NCBI RefSeq assembly: GCF_002735925.1
Contig: NZ_PEDL01000002.1
Location: 124,001-188,000, forward strand
Direction of reading: 5' to 3'
DNA from: Sporanaerobium hydrogeniformans
GTDB taxonomy: Bacteria; Bacillota; Clostridia; Lachnospirales; Cellulosilyticaceae
Length of the DNA: 64,000 nucleotides
Position numbers and translations under genes: made by a program. The notes under the pieces are model-generated. The model saw only the letters and a program-made list of their open reading frames with translations, had not been told where the DNA came from and did no database searches. Positions 7,692 through 14,612 of this stretch are shown one piece after another; the first letter of the stretch is position 1; every line of letters begins with the position of its first letter.

Positions 7692-9050
7692 ATGATTCAC
7701 AAGTTTAAATTTGAAAACAGTAACATTGTCATGGATATACACAGTGGAAGCATTCATCTATTAGATGATGTAGCTTATACCTTAGTAGAAGAAGCAGAGA
7801 CTTTATCCAAAGAGGAGTTGATGCTTAAGTATGCGGGACAATTTGAAAAAGAGCAAATTGAAGAAGCTTATGAAGAACTCATGAGTTTAAAAGAGCAACA
7901 AATGTTATATACCCCTGATCTATATGAAGAATTTGTACCTGCTTTCTTGGAAAGAGAACCAGTTGTAAAAGCACTTTGCCTTCATGTAGCCCATGATTGT
8001 AATCTTGCTTGTCAATATTGTTTTGCTGGTGAAGGGGAATATCATGGTGAACGTGGTATGATGAGTTTTGAAGTAGGGAAAAATGCTATTGACTTTATTA
8101 TTCAAAATTCTAAACATCGTAAGAATATTGAAATTGATTTTTTTGGTGGCGAACCCTTAATGAATTTTGAAGTAGTGAAACAAATTGTAGAGTATGCACG
8201 TTCTAGAGAGGCAGAATCAGGTAAAACTTTCCGTTTTACTATGACAACGAATGGTGTTTTACTAAATGATGAAATAATTGATTATCTTAATGCAAATATG
8301 TATAACGTGGTTTTAAGTTTAGATGGTCGTCCAGAAGTTAATGACCGTATGCGACCCACTTGTAATGGTAAAGGAAGCTATGAGGTGATTTTACCTAAAT
8401 TTAAAAAATTAGTAGAAAAAAGGCAAGGCAAGCAATATTACGTAAGAGGTACCTTTACCCGTCATAACCTTGATTTTGCTGAAGATGTAAAGCATATCCA
8501 TGAAGCAGGCTTTGATGAAGTTTCAGTTGAACCAGTAGTGGCACCAACAACAATGAACTATGCACTTCAGCAAGAAGATGTGAGCCAGCTTTGTAAAGAA
8601 TATGAAACGCTTGCTAAACATATGGTGAAGCTAACTAAACAAGGAAAAGGATTTAACTTTTTCCATTTTATGATTGATTTAGAAGGAGGACCTTGTGTAC
8701 ATAAGCGTTTAGCAGGCTGTGGGTCAGGTACAGAGTATTTGGCTGTAACACCTGATGGTGATCTTTATCCCTGTCATCAATTTGTGGGTCTTCCAGAATT
8801 TAAAATGGGAGATGTGAAACAAGGTATAACGAACCTAGAAAAACGTGCTGAGTTTGAAAAGTGTAATGTTTATAGCAAAGAGATGTGTAAATCCTGTTGG
8901 GCGAAATTCCAATGTAGTGGAGGCTGTGCAGCTAATTCTTATAATTTTCATGGTACGATAAACTCTGTTTATGAAATAGGCTGTGCCCTTCAAAAGAAGC
9001 GTATTGAATGTGCGGTTGGAATAAAGGCAGAGTTACTTGAAAGCGAATAA
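7692..9050 (+). CDS. scfB: SCIFF maturase, radical SAM/SPASM thioether-forming enzyme
   Basis: This 452-residue protein has three parts. Residues about 1-85 are a RiPP-recognition-like region that would bind the precursor leader. The radical SAM core starts at CNLACQYCFAG (CxxxCxxC, about residue 100) and contains FFGGEPLMNFE and TTNGVLL. The C-terminal SPASM region has a cysteine-rich run (CVHKRLAGCGSG, DGDLYPCHQF, CKSCWAKFQCSGGC) for two auxiliary iron-sulfur clusters. This is the architecture of SCIFF maturases such as CteB, and the adjacent scfA confirms it. Reaction: SAM-dependent H abstraction at a Thr and attack by a Cys thiol. A GAGGAAGGG site precedes the ATG. Confidence 0.96.
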   Translation: MIHKFKFENSNIVMDIHSGSIHLLDDVAYTLVEEAETLSKEELMLKYAGQFEKEQIEEAYEELMSLKEQQMLYTPDLYEEFVPAFLEREPVVKALCLHVAHDCNLACQYCFAGEGEYHGERGMMSFEVGKNAIDFIIQNSKHRKNIEIDFFGGEPLMNFEVVKQIVEYARSREAESGKTFRFTMTTNGVLLNDEIIDYLNANMYNVVLSLDGRPEVNDRMRPTCNGKGSYEVILPKFKKLVEKRQGKQYYVRGTFTRHNLDFAEDVKHIHEAGFDEVSVEPVVAPTTMNYALQQEDVSQLCKEYETLAKHMVKLTKQGKGFNFFHFMIDLEGGPCVHKRLAGCGSGTEYLAVTPDGDLYPCHQFVGLPEFKMGDVKQGITNLEKRAEFEKCNVYSKEMCKSCWAKFQCSGGCAANSYNFHGTINSVYEIGCALQKKRIECAVGIKAELLESE

Positions 9051-11645: not shown

Positions 11646-12923
11646 ATGATGGATAATGTATCTTCAGACAAAAAAAGCTTAAAAGAGCGTTTAAAATCTT
11701 TAGTAGTAGGGATTTTAATAGTCCCAGTTATCATCTTTTTATTGATTACTGAAGCTATTGTACATAACTGGGTAAGAAGTATTCTGCTTACAGTATTAGT
11801 AACCATTATTATGATTATAAGTGGAATGATTATTGCTTTGCCTATTAAGAAATTAATAAAAAAATATGGAAGAGAAGTAGCACGTATTAAAGAGGGGGAT
11901 TTTACACTCCTAGAGGAATTAGAGCAATATAAATCGAATAAGGCATTTGCGGCTTTAACGGAAGTTTTAGGTGAAGTTTTAGGTGAGTTTAAGGGACTTA
12001 TTGATTCAACCTTTTATATGATGCAATCTATTGTTGGTTCTAGTAAAAAGGTGCATAAGGTAGCAGATGAAACAGTAACAGCTATGGAAGCGATATGTGA
12101 CACCTTACAAGACATTGCAGTAGGTGCAACTAAGCAAGCTTCACAAAGTCAAAGTTGCCAAGCTATGATGGAAGCTTTATCAACAGAGATTGAAAGCACT
12201 AATAAAAGCTGTAAAAGCATGTTAGAAGCCACTCAAAGAATTACAGTTTTAAGTGATGAAGGAAGTCAGTCTCTCTCTGTCCTTCGTAATAAAACAGGTG
12301 AAACAGCTGATTCCATAGAAAGTATTTCTGTAGCTATTAAAAATTTAAATGAAAAACTTAAGCATATTGCGACTTTCGTAGACTCTATTGAGAATATCGC
12401 TTCTCAAACGAATCTTCTTGCTCTAAATGCAGCAATAGAAGCTGCTCGTGCAGGAGAAGCGGGAAGGGGCTTTGGAGTAGTGGCAGAAGAAATTCGAACA
12501 TTAGCAGACCAAAGTAGACAATCTACAGATGAAATTAAGAATCTTGTGGAAGGCATTTATGCAGAAGCAGATGAAGCAACTCGTGTAATGCAACTGGTGA
12601 ATCGTGCGACAGAAGAAGAAGAAAGGGCTGTTGCTCAAACAGATACAGCATTTAAAGAAATTACTACAGGTATTCAGTTTATCATTGAAAAAATTGATAC
12701 AGCAGCAGTCTCTATTACAAAAGTTAATCATGATAAAGAAGGAGTTGTTTCTGCTATAGAAGCTATTTCAGCTGTTACACAAACCACAGCAGCTTATACA
12801 GAAGAAGTAGCAAGTACAGCTCAAACTCAAATGACAGTTATGGAAGAATTAAAGACCTCTGCCAATGAGCTCAATGAGCAAGTTCTAACTATTGATAAAA
12901 AATTAGCTAAGTATAAGCGATAA
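11646..12923 (+). CDS. Methyl-accepting chemotaxis protein without an external sensor domain
   Basis: This 425-residue protein has two close membrane helices (about 17-38 and 44-66) joined by a loop of a few residues, so there is no room for an extracellular ligand domain. A short HAMP-like region and the long coiled-coil signalling domain follow. The hairpin tip that contacts CheA/CheW is clear ([20 protein letters not shown], then [12 protein letters not shown]). Such receptors sense cytoplasmic, membrane or energy signals. It has its own terminator and no chemotaxis neighbours. Two ATGs (11646, 11649) are possible. Confidence 0.92.
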
Positions 12924-12930
12924 GAATAGA

Positions 12931-12965
12931 AAAAGCATCTTCAGTCTGAAGTATGCTTTTTTATT
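12931..12965 (+). terminator. Intrinsic terminator after chemoreceptor gene
   Basis: The stem AAAAGCAT-CTTCAG / CTGAAG-T-ATGCTTTT has one bulged T and runs into TTTTTT. Confidence 0.85.
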
Positions 12966-12995
12966 CTTATCGGATTGTTCATAAAGAAGGATGAA

Positions 12996-13024
12996 TTGAC
13001 AGGCAACCGTTCTTAGTGTAAAAT
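12996..13024 (+). promoter_or_regulatory. Sigma-A promoter for the CNNM/CorC transcription unit
   Basis: TTGACA, 17 bases, TAAAAT. This is a perfect -35 and a five-of-six -10 at ideal spacing. Transcription should start near 13031, leaving a leader of about 335 nt before the coding sequence at 13365. Confidence 0.85.
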
Positions 13025-13065
13025 AGATTTTAATTTAAATAAATGAGTTAAAAAGGAGAGTATTC

Positions 13066-13150
13066 AATTTATGGAATCTAGCGATGAAGGTGACGAGGCG
13101 GAATGTTTCTGTAGCTACAGAGCCTTATTTTGCGTAACTTTAGATACATA
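13066..13150 (+). promoter_or_regulatory. Structured leader element, candidate riboswitch or peptide-coded sensor (class not recognised)
   Basis: By hand I can fold nested helices. P1 joins 13070-13080 (TATG, then ATCTA) with 13141-13150 (TAGAT, then CATA). ACG (13093-13095) pairs with CGT (13133-13135), AGGC (13096-13099) with GCCT (13122-13125), and TCTGT (13108-13112) with ACAGA (13117-13121). Purine-rich unpaired stretches (GCGATGAAGGTG and GGAATGTT) lie on the 5' side, as in many metabolite- or ion-binding RNAs. ATGAAGG (13084-13090) is also exactly complementary to CCTTCAT (13194-13200) in the 5' arm of the downstream terminator, so the two folds could exclude each other. It does not match the M-box or yybP-ykoY elements as I know them. 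Confidence 0.55.
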
Positions 13151-13187
13151 TAAAAAAATGAAAATAGAATATAAAAAGAGAGAATGA
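13071..13187 (+). CDS. Possible 38-aa leader peptide with acidic N-terminus
   Basis: An ATG lies 12 bases after AAGGAG and opens a 38-codon frame starting MESSDEGDEAE, then CFCSYRALFCV, and ending with a basic tail (YKKRE). Six of the first eleven residues are Asp or Glu. The TGA (13185-13187) touches the first base of the terminator stem, the arrangement expected for translation-coupled attenuation. It shares its DNA with the foldable element, so it may instead be a by-product of RNA structure. No homologue is known to me. Confidence 0.4.
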   Translation: MESSDEGDEAECFCSYRALFCVTLDTYKKMKIEYKKRE

Positions 13188-13244
13188 ACATAGCCTTCAT
13201 GTGCATATAAATTAAGATGCTAAAAATGTAGGTTATGTTTTTTT
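13187..13244 (+). terminator. Leader terminator upstream of CNNM/CorC gene
   Basis: The outer stem 13187-13200 (AACATAGCCTTCAT) pairs with 13226-13239 (ATGTAGGTTATGTT; one mismatch, one G-U). An inner GCAT/ATGC helix sits in the loop, and a run of seven T follows. It lies 120 bases before the coding sequence in the same transcript as the promoter at 12996, so it should act as a conditional terminator. Confidence 0.75.
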
Positions 13245-13364
13245 GCTTATTTTTAGGATATTAAGAGAGGGGGAGAAAGAGCGTTTTGTGTATAAAGTAT
13301 AGATAGAGAATATAAAAATAGGGTATATATAATAGTATAGGATGTATTAAGAAGGGATAAATAT

Positions 13365-14612
13365 ATGAGTAGTAGTGATATAGGAACGTTGGGATTATTA
13401 AGTATATTAATTTTAATGTCTGCATATTTTTCGGCAACAGAAACAGCTTTTTCATCTTTAAATAGAATTAGGCTTAAGAACATGGCTGGCAAAGGTAATA
13501 AGCGTGCAGCTCTTGCATTAAAGCTTTCAGAAGATTATGATCAAGTACTTTCTAGTATTTTGATTGGAAATAATATTGTAAATATTGCTTCAGCCTCTAT
13601 TGCAACAGTATTTTTTACGAAGACTTGGGGGGATGCAGCTGTTACTTTATCCACCATTATTACAACCGTTGTAGTTCTTATTTTTGGTGAGATTTGTCCT
13701 AAAAGTATTGCAAAAGATATGCCAGAGCGCTTTGCGATTTTATCTGCACCTATTTTGAATGTGATTTGCTACCTCCTTACTCCTCTAAACTTTTTATTTA
13801 AAGGACTTAAAAAGCTTATAAATAAGTTGCTTAACTCCAAAGAGGATAGAGGGATTACTGAGGAAGAAATACTTACTTTGGTAGAAGAGGCACAAAGTGA
13901 TGGTGGCATTAATAAAGAAGAAGGCGAGCTTATTAGAAGCGCTATTGAGTTTAATGATTTAGATGCAGTTGACGTATTTACACCTAGAGTAGATGTAGTA
14001 GCCGTAGAAGAAACAGCCACACGAGAAGAAGTAAAAAAAGCTTTTATGGAAAGTGGTTATTCGAGATTGCCTGTCTATAGAGGGGATATTGATAATATTA
14101 TAGGCATTATTAATGAGAAAGATTTTTATAATAAAGTAGTTGACTTAAATGAAGTATTAGATAGTATTATTGCACCACCTATTTTTGTTGCACCAACTAT
14201 TAAGATTTCTCATCTTATGAAGCTTTTACAACAAAAACAGTCCCACATTGCTATCATTGTGGATGAATATGGGGGAACAAAGGGGATTGTAACATTAGAG
14301 GATATTATTGAAGAATTAGTGGGAGAAATTTGGGATGAACATGATGAGGTAGTAAGTGAAATCATTCAAGTTTCTGAAAATGAATATAAAGTATTAGGTT
14401 CTGCCAATGTAGAGAAGGTGTTTAGAGAGCTTAATAGGGATGAAGAAATGGATGCTATGTCTATAAATGGGTGGGTATTTAATGAATTTTCAGCTATACC
14501 TGAAGAAGGTGATAGCTTTCAGTACAAAAATCTTAAGGTAGTTGTTTTGAAAATGGAAGAGAGACGGGTGCTGGAGGTAAGTATTACTGTATACCCTGAA
14601 AATGAAGAGTAA
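13365..14612 (+). CDS. CNNM/CorC (HlyC) family transporter with CBS domains
   Basis: This 415-residue protein has an N-terminal DUF21/CNNM membrane domain (about 5-150) with [20 protein letters not shown] and [15 protein letters not shown], two CBS domains (about 205-320, including [18 protein letters not shown] and [15 protein letters not shown]), and the CorC_HlyC C-terminal domain (about 335-412). Bacterial members (CorC, MpfA, B. subtilis YhdP) are linked to Mg2+ efflux, and the CBS pair binds ATP-Mg. Older annotations call them hemolysins. AGAAGGGA precedes the ATG. It is a single-gene unit controlled by a long leader with its own terminator. Confidence 0.92.

Follow-up and report, generated by a model that had tools for sequence, protein, structure and literature searches.

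In pyrBI attenuation of Escherichia coli, the ORF of the leader extends as far as an intrinsic terminator or beyond it, termination is prevented by a ribosome following close behind the polymerase, and UTP is sensed via polymerase pausing. The CNNM/CorC proteins are tied, at the level of the family, to Mg2+ efflux rather than uptake. Nascent chains with acidic or acidic-proline starts destabilise the ribosome that translates them, the more so at low Mg2+, an effect described in E. coli and there used for Mg2+ uptake genes, whose control it underlies in MgtL and MgtQ (PMC11282234, PMC8092293). MgtL, the leader of mgtA in E. coli and Salmonella, carries EPDP in its first codons, and ribosome drop-off serves as its Mg2+ sensor (PMC11282234); in MgtQ, the upstream ORF of Salmonella mgtB, Asp2 and Glu5 induce ribosome destabilisation and set mgtB expression (PMC8092293). 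CorC-type proteins give protection when Mg2+ is in excess, and in Salmonella high Mg2+ raises corC (PMC12421838); passages of that paper also cite a proposed translation-level control of enterobacterial CorC-domain proteins at high Mg2+, viz., YoaL and mgpA (yoaE), and a sequence for intrinsic ribosome destabilisation (IRD) in the N-terminus of enterobacterial CorC (YbeX) itself.

Here we consider the leader of a CNNM/CorC transporter gene in a 64,000-nucleotide stretch of Sporanaerobium hydrogeniformans DNA (the window, to which all coordinates refer; features lie on the forward strand unless stated). The leader (13025-13244) is laid out as a promoter, followed by an ORF of 38 codons and then an intrinsic terminator. 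The controlled gene (13365-14612), which has a Shine-Dalgarno-like AGAAGGG at 13350-13356, codes for a protein of 415 aa with a CNNM domain (PF01595, 1e-51), a CBS pair (PF00571, 2e-18) and a CorC_HlyC domain (PF03471, 7e-14), bearing out its first-pass assignment to the family, and its product would be expected to export Mg2+. The gene upstream of the leader contains an MCP signal domain (Pfam) and is closed by a bidirectional terminator-like hairpin flanked by runs of A and T (12919-12971, assigned to neither strand), whose long stem also appears in the Rfam scan region 12900-13450. The promoter, of the sigma-A type (TTGACA-17-TAAAAT, 12996-13024), matches the consensus at 11 of 12 positions, and transcription probably starts near 13031. 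The first-pass annotation had described a near-perfect promoter and an attenuator-type leader in front of a CNNM/CorC gene, and the promoter, the terminator and the domains of the gene product agree with it on both points. Further upstream in the window, at 7692-9050, lies a SCIFF-peptide radical SAM maturase gene (TIGR03974), which is ordinary for Clostridia.

The 38-codon ORF, overlooked in the first-pass annotation, is the conserved part of this leader. It runs from an ATG at 13071 to a TGA at 13185-13187 (13071-13187; MESSDEGDEAECFCSYRALFCVTLDTYKKMKIEYKKRE), and its product begins MESSDEGDEAECFCSY. A Shine-Dalgarno sequence, AAGGAG (13053-13058), is separated from the ATG by 12 nt, a long spacing that counts against the translation model proposed below and that has comparable counterparts in three related leaders (L125, L178, L193). 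Six of the ten residues encoded by codons 2-11 (13074-13103) are Asp or Glu, and by analogy to the EPDP of MgtL and to Asp2/Glu5 of MgtQ this acidic start is the predicted site of Mg2+-sensitive ribosome drop-off. The terminator (13187-13244), whose stem at 13187-13239 has a folding energy of about -15 to -17 kcal/mol and is followed by a T run at 13238-13244, begins its 5' arm at the final base of the ORF's stop codon.

We propose that this leader is a leader-peptide attenuator that senses Mg2+ via the ribosome, i.e., an IRD sensor of the MgtL kind with an inverted output, a reading that we consider probable. The RNA would begin near 13031, with a ribosome initiating on the ORF behind RNA polymerase, and the Asp/Glu-rich first codons, joined by Pro in sister leaders, would destabilise this ribosome at low Mg2+. 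Under that condition it would abort within the first codons, the terminator would form and the CNNM gene would be off; at adequate or high Mg2+ it would continue to the stop codon adjoining the 5' arm and block the terminator, so that polymerase would read through and the exporter be made. In those sister leaders where the ORF passes through the hairpin, translation would itself prevent the terminator. For these leaders, the anatomy and its conservation are demonstrated below, whereas the peptide-induced drop-off, its dependence on Mg2+ and the direction of control are what we infer. A rapid release of the ribosome at the stop codon might leave the terminator unprotected, which counts against the proposal.

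For a survey of related leaders, CNNM orthologues of about 43-61% identity were drawn from relatives, the order, the class and a named genome collection, nearly all of them belonging to Clostridia and a small number to Mycoplasmatota or Spirochaetota. To count as a leader, an ORF had to be 8-60 codons long, to have a ribosome site and to start with acidic residues, either alone or together with proline. Automatic calling recovered such ORFs in 52 of 194 distinct CNNM upstream regions, and curation by inspection, in which some leaders were dropped and others added, resulted in 61 listed leaders (about 60, as L002 is doubtful); about two thirds of the CNNM upstream regions are without an acidic leader, a point against the proposal. 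The named carriers include Acetobacterium wieringae, Intestinimonas butyriciproducens, Hungatella hathewayi, Lactonifactor longoviformis and Pseudoflavonifractor. The acidic-start rule was fixed after the first examples had been viewed, and the weight of the enrichment therefore lies on the controls. Among other genes at the same loci with an upstream gap of at least 150 nt, 5 of 229 pass, two of which are CNNM genes (Fisher 3e-16 with these two set aside); so do 4 of the 194 regions when reverse-complemented, 2 of 20 distant CNNM paralogues, none of 23 corA genes and 1 of 12 mgtE genes. On the contig that contains the window, 4 of the 145 qualifying genes in the 400 kb examined pass, the acidic start of the CNNM leader being much the densest. 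Promoters are likewise placed just before the ORF in the 59 related leaders: 35 have one matching at least 10 of the 12 consensus positions (1.8 expected) and 27 one matching at least 11 (0.13 expected). We think it fairly likely that IRD leader-peptide Mg2+ sensors are widespread in Clostridia, in two peptide forms and with an inverted logic in which the exporter is turned on by blocking a terminator. Upstream of three CNNM genes closely related to the MDDSP group (L048, L051, L052), the promoter and terminator are kept and the acidic ORF is absent, with MANSKPLE... in its stead; the sensor may have been swapped in these.

The two forms of the peptide are distinguished by their starts, the first comprising MDEPPL, MDDVPL, MDDGPY or MEDPL, mostly with a GTG or TTG start codon, and the second MDSDDGDCN, MADSADGDTGP or MESSDEGDEAE, mostly with ATG. 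The CNNM tree places them on separate branches, with four changes between them, and they have the acidic start in common. The window's CNNM protein falls in the same 31-row tree group as the Lachnospiraceae-type clade, nearly all of whose members carry the second type. When 391 Clostridia genomes were searched with a pattern of the DEPP type, a single match was returned, which is uninformative because few sampled genomes have this type; a DNA search for the window's leader in 59 relatives returned short AT-rich chance matches only, and a scan of viral contigs returned no relative. At the kept residues the codons vary synonymously: Pro5 of the first type uses all four proline codons (CCG 9, CCT 7, CCC 5, CCA 2), Asp occurs as GAC and GAT, and Glu as GAA and GAG, which indicates that the peptide rather than the RNA is conserved. 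Pairwise synonymous and non-synonymous counts over the first 12 codons give a weak signal (24% vs 20% expected), the kept positions alone being informative.

The composition of these peptides bears on two alternatives. Several leaders look like acidic metal-binding loops (MDSEDGDCN, MADSADGDTGP), and an Asp-rich, DxDxDG-like start could form a metal site, such that the nascent peptide would bind metal or another ligand and stall the ribosome rather than release it; however, the DEPP/DDVP type occupies the same place without the metal-loop pattern, and acidic residues 2-9 are still at or near the peptidyl-transferase centre, and we hold this to be improbable. The runs of Asp codons, with the leader-and-terminator anatomy, would also suit a classical amino-acid attenuator reading the charging of Asp/Glu (or Pro) tRNA. 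Against this, the controlled gene codes for an ion transporter rather than belonging to a biosynthetic operon whose product the codon run would match, the DEPP type has two acidic codons only, and no alternative antiterminator is conserved, making such an attenuator very improbable.

The relation of the ORF to the terminator was scored in the 32 leaders with a scorable terminator, leaving aside L002, L083 and L100, in which the terminator call is doubtful. In all 32, the stem starts no more than 11 nt past the stop codon or within the ORF, so that it would lie beneath a ribosome at the stop codon or inside the translated stretch; the other two frames read from the same start reach the stem in 21 of 64 instances (p 1e-11). 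Ten of the leader ORFs extend beyond the T run. An ORF reaching or traversing an intrinsic terminator is the arrangement of pyrBI-type attenuation, and with the ORF so placed the simplest reading is that a surviving ribosome blocks the terminator and turns the exporter on. As a further observation, a terminator core of the second type, AGGCATAyCTGCG...GTGCCTTTTTGCG, is common to L190, L192, L193, L197, L199, L178 and L114, and translates as AYLR...AFL in one frame, indicating that in several genomes no stop codon interrupts the ORF within the terminator.

The geometry also bears on the possibility that an IRD leader peptide of the MgtL kind operates here with the opposite output, whereby, after drop-off, 13081-13091 would pair with 13193-13204 and the gene would be on at low Mg2+. 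In the window this pairing is strong: folding without the 3' arm of the terminator joins 13081-13091 to about 13193-13204 of the 5' arm, the duplex amounts to -14.1 kcal/mol, and it can form before the 3' arm is synthesised. It includes the complementarity of ATGAAGG (13084-13090) to CCTTCAT (13194-13200) from which the first-pass annotation had deduced a competition between an upstream fold and the terminator; the positions are correct, CCTTCAT lies inside the 5' arm, and within the window the competition stands. However, pairing of the early ORF with the 5' arm is not above shuffles in the 32 leaders (mean z +0.24; window -1.16), and on this duplex test the competing fold was rejected as a conserved switch. 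ORFs abutting or crossing the terminator would, moreover, make full translation the natural antiterminator, and the CNNM/CorC family is linked to efflux and not to uptake, leaving the opposite output unlikely. In the window itself, this extra pairing of codons 4-7 with the 5' arm could act as an antiterminator without a ribosome and thereby invert the logic locally.

The same annotation had treated the nested helices and purine-rich loops of the leader as signs of an RNA-fold sensor outside the known classes. The fold of the leader is no better than that of shuffled sequences (z -1.22; 21 of 200 shuffles fold equally well), and these features therefore do not count as evidence for such a sensor. 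RNAalifold on 16 second-type leaders yields the terminator as the sole consensus helix, with 10 of its 13 pairs covarying and no other conserved helix, and this helix aligns with the terminator of the window (ACATAGCC...GGTTATGT). The first-pass annotation had named a lack of conservation in related genomes as refuting its reading; this applies to the pairing of the early ORF with the 5' arm, while the terminator is kept. The feature that the leaders conserve is the acidic peptide, the reading frame of which extends to the terminator without exception. Rfam covariance models gave no match at gathering score for the window's leader, nor any at E<=10 for 12900-13450, and no match for the leaders of relatives; the M-box and yybP-ykoY riboswitches were rejected for the window on this basis. 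The claim of an attenuator outside the Rfam classes is thus upheld and its suggested ion signal is plausible, while the sensor built of upstream helices finds no support. A riboswitch or protein-bound RNA of a new class, with the ORF incidental, was the earlier view and could appeal to the pairing present in the window; but the lack of Rfam matches in the window's and relatives' leaders, the terminator as the sole conserved helix and the conservation of the peptide despite synonymous codon change make it exceedingly improbable. The attenuator is real and is not a riboswitch.

Other Mg2+ transport genes and the CNNM proteins offer several side observations. In relatives, two mgtE genes are preceded by an M-box. 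A further mgtE (L254, genome G028), with no M-box match, carries in its leader, about 460 nt along the reverse complement of the locus, an ORF of the acidic-proline kind, MDASPLPEEPNQQKTRRAIISNRDLWL, the end of which forms a hairpin adjoining the mgtE ribosome site; the same sensor may here act on the translation of an importer. The mgtE match in the genome of the window (G000:C22:30103-30473; L265, L267), which lies on the same contig but outside the window, is split between frames with an internal TGA and TAG, and the gene may be broken or misassembled. Acidic N-termini are frequent in the CNNM proteins themselves at many loci (e.g., MDSDS, MDDSL, MEDHI), as reported for enterobacterial CorC, and these may add another layer to this control or merely reflect membrane topology.

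In the open-licence literature we found no earlier report of such leaders in Bacillota, which is not proof of novelty. If the proposal is true, they would be, as far as that literature shows, the first IRD sensor beyond enterobacteria and also the first that controls an exporter. Ribosome stability would then be a general bacterial gauge of Mg2+, serving uptake genes, switched on at low Mg2+, as well as export genes, switched on at high Mg2+, and would fill the role of sensor for the CNNM/CorC exporters, no Mg2+ riboswitch having matched in the leaders tested. The approximately 60 natural leaders of two types would also constitute a ready mutational series on destabilising nascent chains for Gram-positive ribosomes.

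Among the described systems, MgtL shares with these leaders a short ORF that lies upstream of a gene for Mg2+ transport and encodes Asp/Glu (and Pro) in its first codons: the window has a translated-looking ORF between the promoter and a Mg2+-related transporter gene at 13071-13187, and the acidic cluster, with or without Pro, is kept at the level of the peptide. MgtL, however, controls an importer by Rho-dependent termination, with full translation turning the gene off, whereas the CNNM leaders, found in Clostridia, precede an exporter-type gene, have an intrinsic terminator at or in the ORF and are predicted to be on upon full translation; instead of a Rho site exposed by alternative folds there is the intrinsic terminator, the alternative pairing is not conserved, and sequence similarity to MgtL is limited to the acidic start. 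MgtQ is comparable as a small ORF with acidic early codons before a Mg2+ transporter gene, and differs in that it controls the translation of an importer, by making its ribosome site accessible, and has no terminator. YoaL and CorC differ in having no attenuator formed of a leader ORF and a terminator; YoaL overlaps mgpA, and the mechanism there is unproven. The M-box (ykoK) riboswitch likewise exerts Mg2+-responsive terminator control over Mg2+ transport genes in Bacillota, but does so through a large RNA aptamer. By inspection, the window's leader has no U-rich polymerase pause tract of the pyrBI kind, and the downstream gene is a CNNM rather than a pyrimidine gene; it is nevertheless pyrBI that the CNNM leaders resemble in the layout of ORF and terminator, with the variable in their case being the survival of the ribosome at the acidic codons, should the proposal hold.
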